Source: Polytrichum commune
Lineage: Eukaryota; Streptophyta; Polytrichopsida; Polytrichales; Polytrichaceae
Length of the DNA: 64,000 nt
Assembly: GCA_950295325.1 (NCBI GenBank)
Contig: OX485807.1
Location: 46,036,440-46,100,439 of the forward strand
Reading direction: 5' to 3'
Position numbers and translations under genes: made by a program. Below are positions 23,053 to 58,517 of this stretch, piece after piece. The notes below the pieces were generated by a model. The model saw only the letters and a program-made list of their open reading frames with translations, did no database searches and was not told the origin of the DNA. Every line of letters begins with the position of its first letter. Within the stretch, counting starts at the first letter, position 1.

Positions 23053-24960
23053 CGCTACAGGAATAGCGCCCTCTCAGCCGGCCACGTCCCCCTGGATGAA
23101 ATACATCCTGGTTAGGGCCCGGGACCTGTGGATGCCACGCCGGGTACACCCGAGCTTTTTCCCGAAACCCGTGATGGAGGTTTTCGGCTATGGCGAAGGA
23201 GGAGCTGCTTTGCACCATACGACGTTGGCATTGGAAAAAATGTGGAACATTTGATAAATTTTTGGTTTCTTAAAGGTTAAAAAAAGTGGCTGGGGTGTAA
23301 ATTGTGCTGGATTCTGGGGAAATTTGAAGGTTTCTTTATGTGATAGCTTGGGAGGTTTTTTGTGTGGAGTACGGAGATTGTCTGTACCAGAGGTGTGAAT
23401 CGTAAAATTGTTGAAGTTTTGTTGAATTTTTTGATGTTCCAGGTGCGAATTTTTCTGTTACTGTATGATATTGTGCAATTTTCTTCGTATGATAGCTCTG
23501 CAGGTTTTTGTGTGGACTACAGAGATGTGCATTTAAGAAGTGGTTGAAATTTTTTTAAAGTTTTGGATGTTCAAGATATAAATTGCAGTTGGAGTGAGAG
23601 TTGCGCTGAATTCTAAAATTATTTGAAGATACCTTTGTGTGAATTCTTCGGAGGGTTTTCCTGTGTGGACTACAGAGGCTGTTCAAGTGAGGAAGAGTGG
23701 CGATGGCTACTCTCTCTCTTTCACAACTTTGGTTGTAGTAGGGAGAATTGTTGAGGTGGAAGGTTCCAGCGGTCAGGTATGGCGTTACCTTACCCCTCCT
23801 TGGAATTTCGTAGTGGTGAATGTGCATGAGATGGGTCGTGAAATTTGTGAAGCAAAAAAAATTTCAATGTAGCACTGGCCCGACGATGTCAAATAGCTCA
23901 ATGTGGAGCAAGGGAGTGGGAGAATATCAAATAGTTTCGGAAGTCTGAGGGATGATGTTGCATAATTTCCAAAACATTGAACTTTGAAATAAGCTCCTGT
24001 TGTGAGAGTTGGTAATTCATGCTCCCAATGAGAGCTCTTACACTAAAATTGTCTTTGCCTTATGGAGCTTGTTGAAGGTTGATCCACCTTGAATTTTAGG
24101 TTTTAGATTCTATTTTTTTTGTACATTATACTTGAATCAAGAAGAAGGAGGAGGTGGGGCACTGAGAAGTGGGGGATGGGGAAGGCATGGAGCAGGCCAA
24201 AATGTGGATTGGGTGCTTGTGGTTTTGGGCTACGATTTCTGGCCCCAATCTCTGGCGTCTCTATCTCCAGGTTTGGTGGACATTCTATGATTGTTGTCTC
24301 ACTTAACTGGGCAATCTACTCATTGTGAATTTGAGAACAAGAATCCTTGCATTCATGCATTTTTTTGTTTACCATCAAAGCCTTCTATATGAAAGATTAC
24401 CATCACAAATCTGGCATAATTACCTCAATCTGGAATATGTGTTGTCAACTAATTATCTGGTGTTAATTCTCAATGGAATACCAGGATGGTTTCGGGAGGT
24501 TTAGCAGGAAGCCGATGTTGCACATTGCAGCAAGTTTTGGCGCTGAAACCGAGAGAGCATTCAAAAAGACTATATAGATCGATCACCTTATTGACAACCT
24601 ACGAGAAACCGAATATTCAAAATGTGAATGCCACACAGGAAACCTGGGATTGCACATCGCCTTTGGCAGGTTTAACAGCAAAAAAACTGTGCCCATCAAG
24701 AAGCAGTAGGAAGACATGTTGCATCATCTTCTAGGGCTAACTCTCTGTTTTATGTGTTATTTTGGGGTCACAGATGGCACAGGTAGTGGCTGAGAACGTC
24801 TTAGCTTTCAATGCTCCATTTTGGCTGCGTCTCGCTGCGAGGGCGGGCCAATGCTCTTCGCATGAGGAGAGAATGAGTTCACCTTCTGATCATACTGTAT
24901 TGAACTTGACAATAAAGCAATAAAAGAAATGAAAGAAAGACAACTCCAATGTTGCCACCG
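23053..24960. other. Region with possible unassigned exons
   Basis: Just right of the Mutator-like element is a GC-richer stretch (23060-23230) ending in a short frame MAKEELLCTIRRWHWKKC. Repeated TGTGTGGA-TACAGAG blocks occur at about 23360, 23510 and 23660, a loose 150-bp repeat. A frame at 24486-24734 encodes 82 unrecognised residues. This could be an untranslated or non-coding transcript, but no gene model can be supported. Confidence 0.3.
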
Positions 24961-24965
24961 GCGTG

Positions 24966-25298
24966 AATTATGGTGTTGCTTCATCTTCAAGTTGATCTAA
25001 GTCTATATGTAATCCTGAAACGGGCATCACGAGAATTAGAGGGCCCCAAAGACTTCTGCCTCCTTCGAATTGTGAACGCCTTGAACAGGTGAGGATTAGA
25101 CGGCCTGCACCTATCTCCCTCAAGATCAAGCCCCTAAATTTCTACACTCCTACTATGATTGGGTGGACTATAGATGGTAGGGTGCACTGGAAATGAAGTG
25201 CTTGGAAGGTCACCCATCCGAGCACTACTCCCGCCTTAGGCAGCTTCATCTCAGAGTTCCCATGGGATCCAGGTTAAGGCCTTAGGTTTAAGCCACCC
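24966..25298 (-). mobile_element. 5S-rRNA-derived SINE, copy 1
   Basis: Read on the minus strand, the first 120 bases follow plant 5S rRNA. They contain GGATCCCATGGGAACTC, GGCGGGAGTAGTGCTCGGAT and GGGTGACCTTCC, which match the 5S segments GGATCCCATCAGAACTC, GGGCGAGAGTAGTACTAGGAT and GGGTGACCTCC. These cover the internal Pol III promoter region. A non-5S body of about 210 bp follows and ends at AGCAACACCATAATT. The same head-plus-body arrangement is found at 30111-30890, so this is a dispersed retroposon and not a lone 5S pseudogene. No clear target duplication was found. Confidence 0.8.
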
Positions 25299-25929
25299 TT
25301 TGAACTTACAAATTCTGTTACTTGAAGGTGATTTCAGTCCCCATCATCACGTAGTCATTGAGTGAACAAATGATCGTTGATGTTTTGAAATGCTGTCATC
25401 TCTTTGGATTAGATGGAATTGATATCCATCTCGAAAGAAAGGGATTAATAGTTATTGGCAGCTGAAGGTTTTTTCCAGCTGGGAATGGTGCTGCCACTGA
25501 ATCAAAAGCAGTTAGTGTGATCCGGATTCTCCGCATTGATCTCAGGGAGACTCTGGAAGTATGAGGAACATCGTCCACTGGAACTCTGATGCAGAAGTAC
25601 ATGCTACCAAAAGTGAACCTCCAATATAAACAGAAATACTCACATTTATAAACTTTGGTTGATGAGAAGTCACATGTGTTTGTTGCTATTTCTGACAGCC
25701 CTTATGGCATGCTTTGATGCAGAAAGAGCACGAGGAGCTTGCTAATCAAATTATAACAGGACCATATGATCCATCATCTCAGTTATCTACTTATCTTCAT
25801 GCACTTCCCTTAGCATATCATTACATAACTTCACAATCACTGCAGTCGTACTCCGACTGTTGTATATAACGATAAAATATTATCCACCCTCTCACTTATC
25901 CACTTCTTGTCATCCACGCTCGTTAACAC

Positions 25930-25950
25930 ACCTCACACATATATAAATGC
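25930..25950 (+). promoter_or_regulatory. TATA-like element upstream of the GIY-YIG gene
   Basis: CACATATATAAATGC lies about 130 bp upstream of the ATG at 26071. It is a plausible TATA box in an AT-rich context and therefore weak evidence alone. Confidence 0.3.
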
Positions 25951-26070
25951 ATACATCTTTCTATTCTTCATCCCACAACCTTCAATTCCTCACTATTTTC
26001 ATTTCTTTATCTCTCTCCTACATAATTTTCGCTCGTGTTCGTAATAGCTGCGAATTCGGAAAGAAGTGTT

Positions 26071-26602
26071 ATGGATTTATCTAGCCGCCTCACAAATGGC
26101 ACTGTGGACTACACAACTCTACTTGCTAGGCTGAAGAATGAAATGCCACGTACTAAGAAGTTGAAGGTCGAACAACAACCACAGGTAAATCATTCTCTCA
26201 TTGCATATGTTTCCCACATTATATATTCGCAAATTCATGCATCATATGTTTTAACTCCTCTCATTTCGTATTTCACATTTTTCACATTCTTTCTCCATGT
26301 CTTACAGGATCACAGGCAAGGTTTACATTGGACAATCCATTAGGCCTAAGCTTCGATACAAACAATATGCACAATCTTCACCTGTAAGGATGCGTAAAGA
26401 TGTGCTCCAATATGGCCCGTCTGAATCCAACTTCAAACTAGATATAGTTCATACAACCGACCAACAATACCATGCAGATCGTATGGAGAAAACTTTAATA
26501 AAAAAATATCAAAGTCAACCAGGTTTAAGTTATAATATTTTGGCTAGACGTCCTTCCTCAGATCCGTTGTATTGGATCCTTAGAAGAAGCAAACGCCTCT
26601 AG
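26071..26602 (+). CDS. Small GIY-YIG endonuclease-like protein
   Basis: The second part (26309-26602) encodes RITGKVYIGQS, the YIG half of a GIY-YIG nuclease fold. It is followed by conserved-looking R-YKQYAQSS, a YGPSESNFKLDIV strand and an E-x-LIKKYQSQPG helix, about 97 residues in all. An upstream frame from the ATG at 26071 ends at a good donor (CAG|GTAAAT, 26184/26185). A good acceptor is at TCTTACAG|GATC (26307/26308). Joining these keeps the reading frame at DHRQG, not ITGK, so the two parts are out of frame by one base. Either the upstream exon is frameshifted, another exon is used, or translation starts at ATG 26297. AATAAA follows at about 26623. DNA cleavage is a family inference. 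Confidence 0.5.
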
Positions 26603-26623
26603 CATTGCGAATATATGTTCTAT

Positions 26624-26632
26624 GCAATAAAG
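26624..26632 (+). terminator. Polyadenylation signal-like AATAAA
   Basis: GCAATAAAG lies about 20 bp after the stop of the GIY-YIG frame, before a T-rich stretch. It is consistent with a 3' end of that transcript. Confidence 0.4.
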
Positions 26633-26639
26633 TTTTTTT

Positions 26640-27460
26640 CCCCTATTTTCCATTGATGGTCCATTGTGGCAAAGGTTTTATTCAACATATCATTAATTCA
26701 CAATAATCAAACCTTTTTTTTTTTTTTTTGATTTCTTTTTGTTTTTCATTTCGTATGTTCTAGAATGCCTTTTGTCTTCAGTCACAAAAATTCATGGGGT
26801 TGAAATTCTAATAGATTCTAATGTGTAGCACCGCTAGTTCAAACCATGTGATGTAAGACTGCAGGGATTGTTTATGTGTAATGAGATTTTATGCGACCTC
26901 CTTTAAGTATGAGAAAGATTGATTTTATTATTATGTCAATGTAGTTAAACTTGTCATATGCATTTTTAATATGATTATAAGAATTATATTTATATCTCAA
27001 GTGGTAACACCTGAGCTTAAAGAAGAAAGACCCAAGAACATGCATTTTCTACATTAATAATCACTACTAAGTTCGTAAATGGTGTAGTTAACTTGTTTTC
27101 ATGATCAATTTTGAATGTGACTACTCTCTTCTAGCACATATTCCTTCAGTTGGTTGCTTCCATTTAGCCGTCTTGAAATTCTATTTGCTTCTTATGTGAA
27201 GCAACAACAATTCAATCCACTTGATGGAAGAATGTAGGGGTCGTTTCTTCGTTATGAGATTTTATGCCACCCCCTCATTTGTTTGTAAATGGTGCAGTAA
27301 ACCTATTTTCATGAATTAATCATGAATGTATCTTTTGTCTTACATCATTTGGGTTGTGTGTATGACTATAGTCGTTCCACCATTCTCTTGTTTTTTTGTG
27401 AAGCGACTCCACTTCCATTCACAAGCCTTTCAATAACTCACCATCATGAGGAGTTGGTGT
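26640..27460. other. AT-rich intergenic sequence with a poly-T run
   Basis: A run of about 18 T at 26710-26730 is the only marked feature. No gene is recognised. Confidence 0.4.
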
Positions 27461-27464
27461 TTTA

Positions 27465-27837
27465 GGGTTGGTTCACTCGGGGTCTCAAGTCCTAAGTCCC
27501 AACTCACTAGAGGTCAATCCCTGCAATCTAGTTGTTGAGAGCATGGGACTTGGGACTTACCACTTCACACGGGGTTCCAAGTCCTAACTCCCAAGTATGA
27601 CATGGATGCCTACATGGCAACACTTTTTGGAGGTGAGACTTGGGACTTCTATTGAGAGTTGGGTCGAGCAAAAAGTTGGACCCAACCCTCAACACAAGTC
27701 CCGTCAATATTTTGCATAAAATAACCAAGATCCGCCTTTAATGATAATTAAGCATACTTTAATGGTTTCTTGTCTCCATGTTGGCACTTGCTGACAAGAG
27801 TGTGACTTGGCGCTTGGGACCCCATGTGAACTGGCCC
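27465..27837. mobile_element. PIF/Harbinger-type MITE, family B copy 1
   Basis: The left end is GGGTTGGTTCACTCGGGGTC and the right end, complemented, is GGGCCAGTTCACATGGGGTC. Both sides are flanked by TTA (27462-27464 and 27838-27840). The 373-bp interior has repeated GACTTGGGACTT motifs and no coding potential. The termini resemble the elements at 42609 and 46534. Confidence 0.8.
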
Positions 27838-28898
27838 TTAATGAATAATTTATGATGTGCTTGTTGTCTTCAATCACAAAATCCTTTGGCCATTAGCATC
27901 CTTGTGGCTGCGATTCTTAGATTAGTTTCTTATGGGAAGCAACAACATTTCATACATGAAAGTTGGTTCTTAATCATACCTATATATATACATTGTTCAA
28001 ATTATTCTAAATTTGAAACTAGGTCTATTCACCCTAACATTCATGTTTATCAAAATATTGTACATTCCTATACCAATACCAATCCTCACATACATGCATG
28101 AATAATTTTCGTTCTTTGGTGATTATAGCTATATCAAGTGAATTTAACATGTACTCAATCCCTACATTGTAATTGCTTTCTTTTATTTCATTTACATTCA
28201 TTAAAATTAGGTAGAAAATCGTGAGCCTTCCCCTCCCACCAACGTAGGGCCCCTGGCCCTAGTGGCTCGTTTGTAAGGGAGATGAAACCATGGGTTTGGT
28301 CACAAACCTAGAGTTTATGAGGATTAACACAAAGTCACCCAAGTTTCTTAACACTTACATTACCCTACACAAAGAGTGGTGTCAGGTTTTTAACAACCAA
28401 CTTTTTAGCTTGTCCTACTAGGATGGGTGGGCCAAGCCAGCCTTACATAGGTTGATCTGGGATTTAGGACAACGGGTCCCATTCACACACCCTGTTTTAG
28501 ATCTCAAAATTCTTTCAAAATTCGAGAGATAAAAAAAAAAGGTCTCAAAAGTTTCACCCAACTTTCAAAATAGGCTCTGATGTATGACATGGTAACAAGC
28601 TCTTAATAGATAGTCTTCTCAAAGAAGGATCAATCCCACAGTCCCATCCCTCTTTGAGGAACTTAACGGATAACTCTATTCTTGTTAAAATATTACTAAT
28701 TTACGAATGACATACAATCGTTTGAAATTAGGAGTCCCATTTGGGAATGTTTAGGCCAAAAGGGGAAAGCACTCATGAAAAAAGGAAACTTTTGCACAAC
28801 AAACAACCTTTTGCAAGCCCCCATCACATGGCCGGATCATGACCATACAAAAGAACAAAAGCACTTAAAACAAACAACGGCTACACTTACACCTTCTA

Positions 28899-29347
28899 CA
28901 GTCTACCCTCTATAAATGTTAAGCCTCGGGAGTGGATCAAAGTTAACATTTATAGAGGTGTTAACAATTAACAATTATAAAATTACTTTTTTGAGCAATA
29001 TACAAATCTTAACATTTATAAATATAAGCAATTGTGAAGAGTCCTTGTGAGAGAATACCATTCATAAAATTGCAAACCCAATCAAAACTTTATTCAATAT
29101 CAAGTTTACAAATCACGGGTGAGAGAGAGAGAGGAATGTAACTGGATGTGTAGTTTTTATCATCCATATTATAGTTGTATTTCATTCGTTAACATTTATA
29201 GAGTCAAATTTACAAAGAAGGGAGTACCATTTTGTTAACAGTTAACACGTTTAAAATTTATAGTGTGCAATATGTGGGGAGTAGAAGAAAGTTAACATTT
29301 AGAGAAGGTTAACACTTATAGGTGTAACATTTATAGAGGGTGGACTG
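28899..29347. mobile_element. Pogo-like MITE (Emigrant/Lemi1 type)
   Basis: The left end is CAGTCTACCCTCTATAAATG and the complemented right end is CAGTCCACCCTCTATAAATG. TA flanks both sides (28897-28898 and 29348-29349). The CAGT-x(4)-CCTCTATAAAT terminus closely resembles the Emigrant/Lemi1 pogo-like family described in Arabidopsis. Internal GTTAACATTTATA motifs repeat several times. It has no transposase and is about 449 bp long. Confidence 0.8.
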
Positions 29348-29647
29348 TACTTAGATAACGTCTTTTGACACCTCTAGGTGCTTTTGGACTAAGGCTTAGA
29401 ATGATCATTGCTTTGTGGATGGACACGAGGCTTAGGCCACATGTCCTTAGTTTTTTTTTGTTTCAATTTTAAAACATCATCCATCTTTATTGGTTGTCAG
29501 CAAATTCTCCTTAACACGTATATGTCTAAGACCTTCCAAAAGCACATTGAATGATAAGTCTAGTAAGTGCGGGTTATCATTTGGTGTTACATGTTGCTAT
29601 ATTTTTTTAACCGAGATTGTCATCTTTCATTCATACAGGAAAAACAA

Positions 29648-29875
29648 CTACACTAAAGTTTGTATTTAGTGTCATCACTTCTATTTGTCTTGCTCAATAC
29701 TATTTGTAAATTGCCCGTGTAGTGTCACCAACACTAATTGCAAACCTAAAAGTATTTGTCATCCCTTGCGAAAAAACAAATGGGCATTATAGATTTATTG
29801 TCACTTACTAATTGATTTTTCATCCAAATTTCAATCATCCATGGCAATATATTTTATTACAAGATTGTTAGGATG
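29648..29875 (+). repeat. Short dispersed repeat, copy 3
   Basis: This block is homologous to 10528-10775 over GTCTTGCTCAATACTA, a TCACCAACACTAA-type block, TCACTTAC and TTTTCATCCAA. It lacks the perfect palindromic core seen at 10.53 kb. Confidence 0.6.
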
Positions 29876-30110
29876 CAAAACATATCAAACTTCCGTTTGT
29901 ATAATTGACATTTGGATGAACTTAAGGTAAGTTGGGATGGTAATACTTGTAAATCTATTCATAAGAAGTGTCACTAGGAAAGTTACAATAGTGACATAAA
30001 ATACCATATGACATAAAAAAAAAAAGAATAGTATGTGTAGTTTGTATGTCAAGAGTATGAAATAATTTACTTGGTAAATTTTATTAAAATAATTATTTAA
30101 TTTAGGAATA

Positions 30111-30890
30111 AATTATGGTGTTGCTTTATTTTCAAGTTGGTCTAAGTCTACATTTAATCTCGAAATGGACATTGGGAGATTATGAAGGCCTTCAAGATTA
30201 TTGTCTCCTTTCAAAGGTGAACACCTTGAATGAGCATGGACAAGCTGGTCAACACATGTCTCCCCCAAGGGCAAGTCCCTACGTTTCCACATGGTTGGTT
30301 GAAAATAAATGGTGCACTCGGATACTCCCACTATGACTGGTTGGATCATATGTGGTAGGGTGAACTAGGAATCAACACTACAAGAGGAAAATGGGGGTCA
30401 AATAGGCATCGGAGGGGCCTCAACTAGTGGATGAAAATGAAGCGTTTCTTACTAATTTGATTATCACCCATGGGCCCAGGCAACCAAGAATCTCTCATGA
30501 GTAAATCTCATTAGAGCATGAAATCGAAAGATCGGACCTTAAGATAGGCATTCTAGACTATTAGGAAGAGTAGGTTCTCCCTGTTCATTGGTTTGGCTAG
30601 GCATGCCGTATATTTGGTGTCGATTATCTGAATAATGATGATCTTGTGTCAATTTTATGCGTAACACGTCATGTGCCACAAAAGACAAGAAAGAATTTAT
30701 AGTCATGCAATTTTCTTGGGGGGAGGGGCATTTCATTGAAATTCTCCCAAACTCGAGGCATGCTACTATAACAGTTTCTCCTTTAGTGGTGCTAGAAGAG
30801 GTCACTCATTTGAGTACTGATCTAACCTTAGGCAGCTTAACCTCAAAGTTCTTACGGGATCCAGGTTAAAGCCTTTAGTTTAAGCCACCC
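30111..30890 (-). mobile_element. 5S-rRNA-derived SINE, copy 2, interrupted
   Basis: The body (30111-30375) and the 5S head (about 30789-30890) match copy 1 at 24966-25298. On the plus strand the head shows GGTCACTCATTTGAGTACT and CTTAGGCAGCTTAACCTCA, diverged from 5S but clearly homologous. A 413-bp sequence beginning CACTA and ending TAGTG separates the halves, so the second element is a nested insertion. Confidence 0.7.
30376..30788. mobile_element. Candidate short CACTA-type element inside the SINE
   Basis: The insertion starts CACTACAAGAGGAAAA and ends TTCTCCTTTAGTG, whose complement is CACTAAAGGAGAA. Comparison with the uninterrupted SINE at 25.2 kb fixes both junctions. The expected 3-bp target duplication is not obvious (CAA against GTG), so classification is provisional. 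Confidence 0.5.
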
Positions 30891-32982: not shown

Positions 32983-35900
32983 TCAAACACCAAGTGCATA
33001 TCGGCCGCGCTTCGGCTTGCAAGCTCTCCAATCTAAAACGACATCCTTGTACGGGAATGATGTCAATGTGTAATGTTTTTGTGCAAACATTGTTGTAGCA
33101 AGAGGTAAATGTTCAGTTAAGCGGTTGCGGAGTTTGTTCTTCAAGAAAGAAACATTGGAAAATGTTCTTTCGTCTTCTACGCTCCCAAGAACCTACAAAA
33201 TGGATGCAAAGAGACAAAGTCAATAAGAAGCCAACTTGCATTCAAGAACATGAATACAAAAAGCATGAGAAAGTTTAATGAAGTAACATATTTTCAAAAT
33301 ATAACCCCGTACCTGGATCATCGCAATTTCTGCGAGCTTAAAGAACTCGGGAAACATACCCTTCAAAGGGACAGATTGTACCAAGGCACGCCATAGTTTG
33401 GTTAAGGGATAAATGTGGGTGTCCATGGCCCTCATTGCATGAGGAGAATTATTTGCCATAGCCACAGCAAACCAATGCAACTGCCGATCAAGTATCATAG
33501 CACTCAACACTGCTGGACATGTATCACAAACATTTGTAGCGCTAGAGAAATCCTTGGTGTGAGCATATGTTTGCTTCAAAGTGTTCATGTACCCTGTGAG
33601 TTTGTCCTCATGCCCTGGCTCAAGCCAAAATTGAGGATATACAATGGACAGTGCATCATTACCTCACTAGGGGGAAACCTACTTCCCAATTCCATCACCA
33701 TCATGGCTGCAGCATCTGCAATAAAAAACCAACACATTAGATCCATGCTTATGGATGCAAAACCTTGATATAATCAAAAGATGCAAAAACATAAACAAAC
33801 AAACAAAACTAAAAACAAACACATACCTGCAACCTCGACCTTCACCTCCGATATCGTTCTATCAAATAATTCTCTTGTCACAAAACTCCTCAAGTGTGTG
33901 AAATGATCACGCAATTTGCATTGAGGTGGGAACCGGCTGAAGTTGACAAATGGGCCTCAAAAACCAAGTGCTCAACACAATCATTCACATCTGGATGCCA
34001 CCTTAGGCGGATGCTCTCATGCGAAAGGTCACATATCTTTTTGAAGCATGAAAATGCATCTGAAATGAATGCATTGTTTGTGCAATACAAGTCATTTACA
34101 TCTGAGATACAAAGGCTCAATGCCCTTGTGAAATCACACACATATACACTGGGGGATTGTGCAAAGACAACCAAGGCTTTCACAGCCTCTAGAAGAGGTA
34201 GCATTGCAGCCAAGGTCAGTAAAGACTTGATATTAGCCATGAGTTCATAATTTACCTTGGCTGTCGGGATTGTTGGTTTTATAAGATGATCAGAGTACAT
34301 CTTCACCAAAAGGGTGCGGTACTCTGACAAAACACGTTTTAATGGATTTAACATTGAAATCCACCTTGTTTTTACATTTTGAAGAATTTTTCTGCCCTTA
34401 GACTCAAGCAATTCAGCAAGTTTTTGGAGCTCCAAATGACGTTTTGGGGACTTACTAAAATACTTGTGCAAAGCAGCTAGTAGGGTTTCAATCCTAGCCA
34501 CCATCTCCAGATCTGATAGACATTGCACTGCAAGGTTGCTTCGATGTGCCACACAATGCATGCCTTGCATATGTGGCGCATGAGAAACCTGCAGCTTGTT
34601 AGTGACACCATTCCTCTTCCCTTGCAAAACCGATGCACCATCTGCCCCAAATGCCATGAATCGGTCTCTAATCTGATGTGGGGTTAACCCACCTTCATTA
34701 GTGAGTGCACCAAGAATCATCTTGGTTATATTATCGGCACCATCACCCTCAGTCACACGCTGCAAGCACAACAACATTGGCACTTTCTCCCAATCTTGAA
34801 TTGTATAAACATGCATGCTAATCCAAGATTGGTTGTCCAACGTTGTGACTTCATCGCAAGTGATAGAGAAGTAAGGGGCTGTACTTACTACTTCTTTTAT
34901 CCTTGTTTGCACAACGTTAAACAAACTCTCAGCCATTTCCCAACCCGACCCCTCGGTCCAATGCTTCAATGGAACGTGCACATACATTCAAGTGCCATTA
35001 CTAACCAACACAATGTTTCAAAACAAAATTAATAACATAAGCAACTGAAACTGAAAAGAAATGAAGGATTCTGACCTTAGGAACGCCCAGGAATTGTAAC
35101 AGCTCCTTCATGGGTGGATATTCTGTCATAGGTCTTCCAAATTGTAACAAGTGGAAGATGACTGCCATTTGTACTTCCTTGCGTTTTGGAGGAGCCCCAG
35201 CTGTAACTAGGGTTCCAATATCATTAACAGATAGTGTTGCAAATGTCCTCTCAGCACGCTTGTAGACGGAATTCTGGTCCCAATACCATTCACCTTTCTT
35301 CACCTTCAAAGAAGGTAAGTCGCTGAGTGCTCTCTTCCATCCTCGGTGTTTTTTAAGGTTGTCATCTTTTGCATCCAGTATTTTGTCTCTGCCATTTACT
35401 TTAGAACAGATGATACATCGAACTTTGTCAAATGTACCATCCCCTTCAGGGTCCTGTTGAGAGCATGGGTATTTTGCTGCCCAATTTTCTTGAAATCTGC
35501 ACCAAAACCACCTTAAACCAGTGAGAAACAAGACATCATCAAAAACATATTCTCAAAATGCCAACAAAAATCCCCATAGGAAGTGGCCCCTAAACCCATA
35601 ATGTTTGGGGAGACACGTGCGTGGCGGGTTTGGGTCGGGTATAAACCCCCCCCGGTGTAGAGGAGGTGGAGCGGGGCCTTCCGGTAGAGCTCACATTTAG
35701 GCCTTCCGGCAGAGGCCACGTTTAGGCCCTTCCGGTATAGGCCAAGAATAAAAAGTTTCACAAGTTTTTCAAAAAAAAAGTGGCCTCAACCAGTATGGCC
35801 TAATCATTTTTTTCTTCTTGTGAAACTTTTTATTCTTGGCCTATACCGGAGGGGCCTAATCGTGGCCCCTGCCGGAAGGCCTAAATGTGAGCTCTACCGG

Positions 35901-56136: not shown

Positions 56137-57651
56137 TCAACATCTCGAGCCTGCTGAGCAAGAGAGAGGGCCAGCACTGCTGGTCATCCTCGAGACTAGG
56201 GACGCTGGCCGGGCGGCGCAGCTGGTTGCCTTTGCATACGCTTGGGCAGATGTCTGAACTCCCGACCCAGTGAAGTAAGCCCCCGACATGAAACTGTCAC
56301 CCACAGATTTCCAGTTCCACTTGAGAGGACCGCCGTAAGAGTTGCCCCTATCGTTGATACGCTTCGTCACCTGCCTGGGTCCGCTACCAGGGTTGAATAT
56401 GTTGCCCTCCGACAGAATGGTGGGATTTTCACTGCCGCCGACGGCGTATATTCCCCACCCGGCTGTGTAATCGTTGTTCACGATGTGTACACTCCCGTGG
56501 CGAATCCTAGGGAGCCTCTGGGTGAGTTTCGGTCCGAAGGTGTTGTAGGCGACCGTCACTTGCATGTTCCTGTCTTCCATGTCGTTCGGGTGGGCACCCA
56601 GAAGCATTACCTTGTCGTGTTGGGTGAAGTAGTTGTTGGAAATTGTCACTCCGGTTGAGCCCTTGATCACGTCGACGAGGCCGTCGGCGGCCCTCGCAAG
56701 GTAGCAATGGTCGACCCAGATATTCTTCGACGAGTAGATGGAAATCGCATCCCCGTCCGCCCTTCCTCGGTTTCCCACATGGGAGGTAGAGCTCATGATC
56801 CTCGCCGGGCCTGTCGCTTGAATGTCGTGAATGGAAATTCCGTGAACAATGACATTGGTGACGTACTGAAGCGTCAGACCAGCGCCTCCAGCGATCTGCA
56901 CGTTCACGCCCCGCCCGTCGATAGTCTTGAAGCTGGTGATGATCAGCTCATTCTTCAGCCGGATGGTCATGCTGCGCGCAAACGTGATCCACAGAGGCTC
57001 AGCGCGGGTGACGGCGTACCGCAGAGTCCCGGGGGAAGGATTCGCGGGGTTGTTGTCAGCGGCGGACGTCACCACGTAGATTCTGCCGTTCTTCCCACCG
57101 ATAGCGTTCCGTCCAAACCCGATGGCACAGTTCGCAAGGTTCTGACGATGGGAAGCCCAGTTGGGATCACACCTCCAGCAATCGTCCACCGGGTTCCCTG
57201 TGGCACACCCACCCGACTTCGTCGCCAGGGAAGTACTTGAATCCGTCGCCCCCGACGTACTATACCTATCGTCCACAGTCTCCACCATGTCGAAACCATC
57301 ACCAGAGCTGGTCGGAGATCCCGGCTTTACATTCGCAAGGTCACCAGTGGCATAGCTGTCCGCGGCTTGGAAGCTATCGACAGCTTGAAAGTTACCCTCC
57401 AAACCTCCTTCCGGCTTGGTAGCGTCATACACATAGTCAGGGTCAGACGACCTGGTAGTGAAGCTTGCATCGGTAGTACTGTCCGCAGCGAGGGAGAAGA
57501 CTGCTCCATTGGCCCCATTCGAGAATGATATGGGCTCAGTCTTCGCAGATGACGAATCCCACTCTTCCTGGGACTGGACCAGGTCGGCAACCACCAAACC
57601 CATCACCATGGTCATCACCACCCATGACCGCATTCCGAACAATGCCGCCAT
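56137..57651 (-). CDS. Pectate lyase, polysaccharide lyase family 1, secreted, intronless
   Basis: Pectate lyases cleave de-esterified homogalacturonan by Ca-dependent beta-elimination in the cell wall. From ATG 57651 the product is 504 aa. An ATG 105 bases upstream in the same frame is possible, but only this start places a hydrophobic signal (RSWVVMTMVMGLVVADLV, 8-25) at the N-terminus. An acidic Ser/Thr-rich spacer covers 28-148. The parallel beta-helix core starts at NPVDDCWRCDPNW (153-165). Signatures include GTLRYAVTRAEPLWI (208-222), FKTIDGRGVNVQI (241-253), ADGDAISIYSS (298-308), WVDHCYLARAADGLVDVIKG (312-331) with Ca-binding Asp residues, NNYFTQHDKVMLLG (339-352), RLPRIRHG (379-386) with the catalytic arginine, and VNNDYTAGWGIYAVGGS (391-407). 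The gene is markedly GC-richer than its surroundings. The long frames antisense to it are shadows. Confidence 0.95.
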   Translation of the reverse strand: MAALFGMRSWVVMTMVMGLVVADLVQSQEEWDSSSAKTEPISFSNGANGAVFSLAADSTTDASFTTRSSDPDYVYDATKPEGGLEGNFQAVDSFQAADSYATGDLANVKPGSPTSSGDGFDMVETVDDRYSTSGATDSSTSLATKSGGCATGNPVDDCWRCDPNWASHRQNLANCAIGFGRNAIGGKNGRIYVVTSAADNNPANPSPGTLRYAVTRAEPLWITFARSMTIRLKNELIITSFKTIDGRGVNVQIAGGAGLTLQYVTNVIVHGISIHDIQATGPARIMSSTSHVGNRGRADGDAISIYSSKNIWVDHCYLARAADGLVDVIKGSTGVTISNNYFTQHDKVMLLGAHPNDMEDRNMQVTVAYNTFGPKLTQRLPRIRHGSVHIVNNDYTAGWGIYAVGGSENPTILSEGNIFNPGSGPRQVTKRINDRGNSYGGPLKWNWKSVGDSFMSGAYFTGSGVQTSAQAYAKATSCAARPASLVSRMTSSAGPLSCSAGSRC

Positions 57652-58517
57652 ATCCACAATGCCAGAATTTCCTGAACACCTTAAAATTGGAGTCAGTGTA
57701 CCTTTCTCTGTACTCCTCACATGCACCTCGGAGGCATATGCTCCAAACAAACCCAACAGTGGTCTCCCTTCAGTTCCTACAGGCGAGTCGATGAGAGAAG
57801 TCCCTCAAGAGACACTTGCAGAACTGATGAATCTGGGGCGTATGTGGGGGCTTAAGTATATGTTCCGATCGGCTGCGAGAAGTGCCGAGAGAATCGGCAA
57901 TGTGCGCGGGCCAATGTGCGGGGACGGCAACGTGCTCGGAGAGGAATTAGCCGGAGTGATCGCGCTGAAGTTAATTAGTTGATTTTTCTGACATGATCGA
58001 TCCGCGGTAGAAGTTCAAAAGTTATGAATCAAACAGTGTAATTGTTTGCCTCATTTATTAGACAAGAATTGAATGCTTGGAGGTAGGAAGGAGACCCACT
58101 GCTGAATCAGCGCTCGATTAATTGCAACCATGAGCATGTGGGGAAAAATTAACCCATCTTGGAATTTAGTTTGCAGATTTCCTCCAATTGCAGGGGAGGT
58201 TTTGTAACCCTCCATTTTGCCTTCCATAAACTCAATCACATCCAGCATAACATTACTCAGCTGATGAGCCTGTGTTCATTGGCCCATCATTGTGTTCGAG
58301 AATAAAGACTCCAAATTTCCAAATTCTACTGTTTCAAATTGAATCTAAAGTTAGGATAGATAAACACAAATCATCAGTTGAGAAATGAAGAATACACTTA
58401 TAAGTTTGATAATGTTGATTTATGTGTTTTCTTCTAGGAGTAGTGGTCACATCTCCTCCTAGAATTGTTGTTTCTTTGGTTTTGATGTATTAATAACATG
58501 ATGGATTCTCACACCAT

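Follow-up and report, generated by a model that had tools for sequence, protein, structure and literature searches.

A dispersed repeat family with a 5S rRNA-like head in Polytrichum commune, probably an old family of short interspersed nuclear elements

The stretch of Polytrichum commune DNA analyzed here, called the window throughout, covers 64 kb (C5:46036440-46100439, contig OX485807.1 of assembly GCA_950295325.1) of a 408-Mb assembly, of which seven large contigs (C1-C7) make up about 406 Mb. Two loci of the window, copies A and B, were found to be reverse-strand members of one repeat, 72-80% identical in head and body, in which a head resembling 5S ribosomal RNA (rRNA) is joined to a body of other origin, and their parts are listed in Table 1. 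A preliminary description of this DNA had proposed a 5S rRNA-like head and a shared non-5S body at both loci, and both were recovered by alignment on the minus strand, the head over 92 ungapped nt at 80% identity and the body over 181 nt at 72% plus 52 nt at 79%, with E values in the search of the window of 9.5e-19 for the shared head and 1.2e-28 for the shared body. The loci placed there are real, while their limits need widening: copy A extends from 25300 down to 24937 and continues as a T-rich tail to 24913 (25311-24900 when its target-site duplications are included), and copy B extends from 30890 down to 30111, is split by a 413-bp insert, lacks the last ~29 nt of the consensus together with the tail, and holds an exact match to a 22-mer of the body at 30209-30230. 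The head part of copy A carries the equivalents of 5S positions 14-96, which include box A, the intermediate element and box C, with 84 of 84 positions aligned to the family consensus at 89% identity. Its flanking duplications match over 12 nt with one inserted base and score 9.0, equal to the 99th percentile of the control. The insert in copy B, whose ends we take to be of the class named CACTA, is by its sequence probably a small non-autonomous DNA transposon that landed later and separately from the repeat.

Table 1. Positions of the parts of copies A and B (window numbering) and of the loci of a separate 5S-like repeat (contig numbering).
Feature	Position	Strand	Remarks
Copy A, 5S rRNA-like head part, consensus 15-97	25204..25286	-	aligned to consensus; element 5' end at 25300
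Copy A, body of non-5S origin with the conserved 3' end, consensus 98-395	24937..25203	-	consensus 173-194 deleted
Copy A, T/C-rich 3' tail of TTTC type, after the core	24913..24936	-	
Copy A, upstream target-site duplication	25300..25311	.	base 25300 assignable to element or duplication
Copy A, downstream target-site duplication	24900..24912	.	
Copy B, 5S-like head, consensus 3-103	30789..30890	-	
Copy B, body, up to consensus 366	30111..30375	-	3' end and tail missing
Insert in copy B, 413 bp, inverted ends presumably of CACTA type, CACTACAAGAGGAAA / CACTAAAGGAGAAA	30376..30788	.	sequence read directly
Separate 5S-like repeat, L045	C2:59433559-59433942		
Separate 5S-like repeat, L046	C7:14288081-14288456		
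Separate 5S-like repeat, L054	C4:54347735-54348118		
Separate 5S-like repeat, L055	C1:23658904-23659050		

A genome search with copy A, in which the best 40 of 2140 first-look candidates were scored, returned 44 matches distributed over all seven large contigs. The 40 loci found in this way form set A, with flanks of 1.5 kb for L001-L030 and of ~0.1-0.3 kb for L035-L044, and its statistics use 36 copies, since L002, L003 and L004 share their flanks with L001 (copy A) and L019 shares its flanks with L018. Set B comprises 40 loci picked by hand, at intervals and regardless of the head, from the first 100 exact places listed for the body 22-mer, which end on C5, and a third set holds 20 of the 28 listed exact places of a 22-mer from the 3' end. 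Allowing at most three mismatches, the body 22-mer occurs at 1301 genomic places (675+626), well above the handful of copies against which the preliminary description had asked the family to be measured, compared with 7 (3+4) for its reversed control, and the 3'-end 22-mer occurs at 926 places (468+458) compared with 1 for the control. The body 22-mer recovers 27 of the 36 set A copies, and the 3'-end 22-mer recovers 26 of these 36 and 13 of the 40 in set B; place counts and recall together put the family very roughly at 1,300-2,900 copies, with fragments and duplicates counted in.

The family consensus, derived from 33 set A copies, is ~395-400 nt long and begins with AAGGGTGG, followed by the 5S-like stretch at 15-97, the body, the fixed 3' box GTGGCAACATCGGAGTCATC, and a TTTC/T-rich tail that varies in length among the copies, so that the shared 3' end looked for under the preliminary description is present. 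Short interspersed nuclear elements (SINEs) are short (100-700 bp), non-coding and present in many dispersed copies, and the length of the element falls inside this range. Beyond the two ends the printed flanks look unrelated except in duplicated loci, and 85 nt or more of the element is present at every one of the 20 sampled exact 3'-end places. In 20 of the 36 set A copies, including copy A, 15-36 nt are absent within consensus 110-220. The head is reached by 23 of the 40 set B copies. The other 17 begin at consensus 49-220, one of them (L071) running off the end of the retrieved sequence; when the parts upstream of these 17 were compared all against all, no alternative head in common emerged, only a single 18-nt match between L069 and L080.

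The preliminary description had also suggested aligning the head to the 5S rRNA of the species itself. In such an alignment consensus 15-97 pairs with positions 14-96 of a host 5S gene at a local score of 49, whereas 1000 dinucleotide-preserving shuffles of the 5S sequence score 11 on average and at most 19. In the global alignment the agreement is 15/15 at 5S positions 65-79 and 15/19 at box C (80-98), and every one of the 36 set A copies matches 5S better than all 300 of its mononucleotide shuffles. The motif GGCCGGAATAGTACT occurs in the consensus and in all four of the host 5S genes printed, and the 5S rRNA of flowering plants differs at this motif, which would point to a head that descends from, or evolved in step with, the 5S rRNA of this lineage. 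Judged by these alignments, homology of the head to 5S rRNA extends to the internal control region, and the case is strong for the family consensus. Land plants also possess exons of the TFIIIA gene that mimic 5S rRNA, and such an exon was an alternative named in the preliminary description; the number of places, above one thousand, the presence of a body downstream of the head and the duplications speak against this explanation, whose probability we regard as negligible.

Dispersal through segmental or tandem duplication is true of a few loci. Kilobase flanks are common to L001-L004, all of which lie on C5, and to L018/L019; L002 and L004 carry the element of copy A at 94% and 91% identity with the same flanks, and L003 is a further duplicate of that locus interrupted by additional DNA, indicating that copy A was inserted once and later duplicated with its surroundings. 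These loci fit the idea that 5S pseudogenes were spread solely by such duplication, and the larger non-retroposed duplication of which the preliminary description had warned is real for the three closest relatives of copy A and for L018/L019. It does not hold for the family: among the 30 loci compared, which were those with 1.5-kb flanks, the other 24 show no alignment past the element (the longest covers 497 columns, approximately the element itself), copies have duplications of their own, and 5S genes do not contain the shared body. Spread solely as duplicated 5S pseudogenes is consequently very improbable, and the retroposition proposed in the preliminary description is upheld by the dispersal, the unrelated flanks of these 24 loci and the target-site duplications.

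Those duplications adjoin the first bases of the element at one side and come after the tail at the other. In set A (n=36) the match between the two flanks of the same copy averages 7.90, compared with 5.30 over 1260 mismatched pairs, with 15 copies above the 95th percentile of the control and 11 above the 99th; in set B, from which 6 of the 40 copies were dropped owing to a missing 3' end or a flank too short, the 20 copies that retain both ends by a strict criterion average 7.28 compared with 5.18, and 7 are above the 99th percentile. In neither of the two samples did any of 20,000 permutations reach so high a value. The clear duplications are mostly 9-14 bp long, with a few longer imperfect ones (L016, L066). 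A miniature inverted-repeat transposable element (MITE), derived from a DNA transposon and carrying a captured piece of 5S, exemplifies how the family might have moved otherwise; no support for this route was found, although copy B itself contains a CACTA-type insert, and the consensus ends, compared by eye, form no inverted repeat, the duplication length is variable, and the variable T/C tail occurs at one end only. Movement by such a route is very improbable.

The known plant repeat that bears 5S sequence is Cassandra, a terminal-repeat retrotransposon in miniature (TRIM) with the 5S sequence inside its long terminal repeats (LTRs), and the initial hypothesis, absent from the alternatives weighed in the preliminary description, was that the family represents solo LTRs of Cassandra, whose LTR length of ~200-400 bp fits (PMC10853983). 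Its described hallmarks are the LTRs and a methionine-tRNA primer site, TGGTATCAGAGC (PMC7215508, PMC10853983). At two or fewer mismatches this primer-binding site was found in 0 of the 36 set A copies, in the element and up to 250 nt beyond it (some flanks being shorter), and a second near-complete copy that could form an LTR pair was found in the flank of none of the 36, of which 26 have 1.5-kb flanks and 10 have flanks of ~0.1-0.3 kb that test this poorly; pieces of the element occur in the flank of 3 of the 36. The element starts with TG in 2 of the 36 copies, the published box A pattern of Cassandra is matched by none and its box C pattern by 3, and the box A of the host 5S genes, inspected by eye, also departs from the Cassandra pattern. 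Placement of the 5S part at the very 5' end and of a T/C tail at the 3' end is unlike a Cassandra LTR. The target duplication of Cassandra is 5 bp. The same length is given for the plant TRIM Helenus (PMC10886601), as against the mostly 9-14 bp here. Solo LTRs of Cassandra were thus rejected on the ends, the tails, the duplications and the primer-site and LTR-pair tests, leaving them a very small probability. This rejection concerns the family, not the whole genome, in which the best 47 of 15,430 candidates of a 5S search were scored; of 15 further 5S-like loci taken from that search to look for Cassandra, 11 resemble 5S genes or their pseudogenes, and 4 represent a small separate family.

With a composite structure, dispersal, fixed ends, a tail and duplications observed, both window loci are very probably decayed copies of a SINE, a non-autonomous retroposon, whose head derives from a 5S rRNA gene of the host lineage. 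Transcription of the family by RNA polymerase III and its dependence on a long interspersed nuclear element (LINE) are inferred from its sequence. The control region formed by box A, the intermediate element and box C would recruit TFIIIA, TFIIIC, TFIIIB and RNA polymerase III; transcription would begin close to the 5' end of the element, yielding an RNA of ~400 nt; the reverse transcriptase of a LINE would recognize the fixed 3' end and the TTTC-type tail; and target-primed reverse transcription into a nicked target would produce the mostly 9-14 bp duplications and some 5'-truncated copies.

Several observations weigh against this reading, in respect of the head, the transcription, the duplications and the partner. 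Agreement with host 5S is weak outside the core, at 7/13 for positions 1-13 and 22/35 for 14-48, with 10/16 at box A and 11/21 at 99-119. The Rfam 5S model finds only copy A in the window, at 26.1 bits (cut-off 38) and an E value of 0.41, and matches none of 20 set B loci at E up to 0.05, 12 of which reach the head; with single copies rejected by the model, the head has retained the promoter stretch and not the 5S fold. In just 21 of the 40 set B copies does the match to 5S exceed that of all 300 mononucleotide shuffles, a shortfall that fits the 17 copies not reaching the head. Polymerase III could be halted early by a TTTT within the element (consensus 171-174), which is intact in 20 of 36 set A and 24 of 40 set B copies and whose region is wholly or partly missing in 14 of 36 and 3 of 40, respectively. 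Individually clear duplications are a minority, with 20 of 55 copies of the pooled sets above the 99th percentile of the control (one more copy being dropped for its short flank), and the sites of copies without one may be old and decayed. Among the set B copies truncated at the 5' end, 14 of 17 could be tested, and these average 5.82 compared with 5.24 (p=0.048), with one above the 99th percentile; that one, L085, has a perfect 12-base duplication, indicating at least one genuine 5' truncation, whereas the weak duplications of the others suggest that some truncation may be later decay or damage, and 5' truncation by the insertion process is accordingly established in part. Finally, many SINEs, though not all, have a 3' end in common with a partner LINE, and here a LINE partner was not found: in a reverse-transcriptase search the best 150 of 2620 candidates were scored, and 10 LINE-like 3' regions taken from these, the class being judged by match length and open frames and not by a tool, show no similarity to the SINE tail above shuffles, although in 3 of the 10 (L125, L127 and L129) the frame continues to the limit of the retrieved sequence, short of the 3' end. 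Four of the 20 sampled 3'-end places (L103, L110, L114 and L121), which start at consensus 274-311, were considered as LINE ends and discarded, as their upstream parts share no sequence.

The family appears old. Pairwise identity within 50 independent copies (36 from set A plus 14 near-complete ones from set B; 1225 pairs) has a median of 0.756 and a maximum of 0.858, and the consensus base is kept at 61% of CpG positions compared with 90% elsewhere, a loss expected for methylated, long-resident DNA. No young copy was seen in this sample, which covers less than a tenth of the places, and the family is probably inactive. Pieces of the 3' half of the SINE are also repeated head to tail, with four copies of ~95 nt in L120 (C6:29463623-29464054) and shorter tandem pieces in L005 and L026, and the three loci are read as SINE-derived tandem arrays in formation.

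Other 5S-related loci were recorded in the genome. The small separate family, which is distinct from the SINE and looks young, accounts for seven matches, distributed over four loci, in a search of the genome, and three of the loci are 94-97% alike over 0.8-1.2 kb and carry two tandem 5S-like units ~184 nt apart, the fourth carrying one. Three host 5S genes lie at C3:24.07-24.11 Mb (L031, C3:24068742-24068860, and its neighborhood), ~14 and 30 kb apart, with a match to a C/D-box small nucleolar RNA 0.4 kb from one of them, and among the matches listed further full-scoring 5S genes occur on other contigs, some of them single. No 35S rRNA reached the Rfam cut-off in the 1.5-kb flanks of L031, L033 and L034. 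Elsewhere in the window, a small reading frame of two pieces, joined by eye, at 26071-26600 on the plus strand, ~0.8 kb from copy A, has a GIY-YIG nuclease domain (Pfam, 27.3 bits; cut-off 22.6); a long uninterrupted pectate lyase frame occupies 56137-57804 on the minus strand, its nearest solved structure being the pollen allergen Jun a 1; and three adjacent long open frames at 33220-35552 on the minus strand resemble, by eye, pieces of a hAT/BED-type transposase, with no Pfam match at E up to 0.01. ARAGORN detected no tRNA in the window; the head of tRNA-derived plant SINEs is tRNA-like, with boxes A and B. Outside the window, contig C8 carries an open rbcL frame whose best match among solved structures is 9chz, a hornwort enzyme; together with the seven large contigs, a number that fits the n=7 of Polytrichales, and with the 5S sequence, it agrees with a bryophyte host.

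SINEs with a 5S-derived head are a described class, SINE3, known in animals from zebrafish SINE3, AmnSINE1, OS-SINE1, springhare Ped-1 and the lepidopteran HaSE3 with its relatives (PMC3747384, PMC10886601) and reported from one fungus, Aspergillus fumigatus (PMC5063351). The present family shares with this class the 5S head on a non-5S body, the internal promoter blocks of 5S type, the dispersal and, as a general SINE feature, the target-site duplications; it differs in its plant host and its T/C-rich tail, the likeness being drawn from described features. In Table 1 of PMC3747384, which pairs SINEs with LINEs, 5S promoters are entered for animals only and the three land-plant entries have tRNA promoters, different from the 5S head here, and in PMC10853983 the borrowed promoters cited for SINEs likewise concern animals. 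The preliminary description had called such a family rare in plants; no plant SINE derived from 5S was found in the open literature surveyed through listed titles and the starts of abstracts, with subscription journals and Repbase outside that scope. The plant SINEs with T tails, such as Au, p-SINE1-3 and ZmSINE2, are, like this family, short, putatively non-coding and terminated by a 3' run of T, and their LINE partner is often entered as 'Nd' (PMC3747384, Table 2). The finding suggests that a plant retroposon family can reach more than a thousand copies with a promoter of 5S type, and it cautions annotators against assigning every 5S-like repeat of a plant to Cassandra or to pseudogenes of 5S.

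The LTR elements Cassandra and Ajax (TRIMp3), with 5S sequence in the LTR, resemble the family in borrowing the internal promoter of 5S and differ in their paired LTRs and primer-binding site, which were looked for in the P. commune family and not found, and Ajax makes 5-bp duplications compared with the longer ones here (PMC10886601). The 5S rDNA arrays have been viewed as the direct source of the Cassandra promoter (PMC10853983), while it has also been speculated that Cassandra arose when a SINE3, a 5S SINE, landed in an LTR (PMC10886601). Land plants might then have held 5S-headed SINEs of their own since before the divergence of vascular plants, with the Cassandra promoter coming from the landing of such a SINE in an LTR and the present family being a survivor or relative, a scenario that we consider unlikely as it stands. 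A family of 5S SINEs in a plant makes this origin of Cassandra testable through comparison of the promoter stretches of the SINE and of Cassandra.

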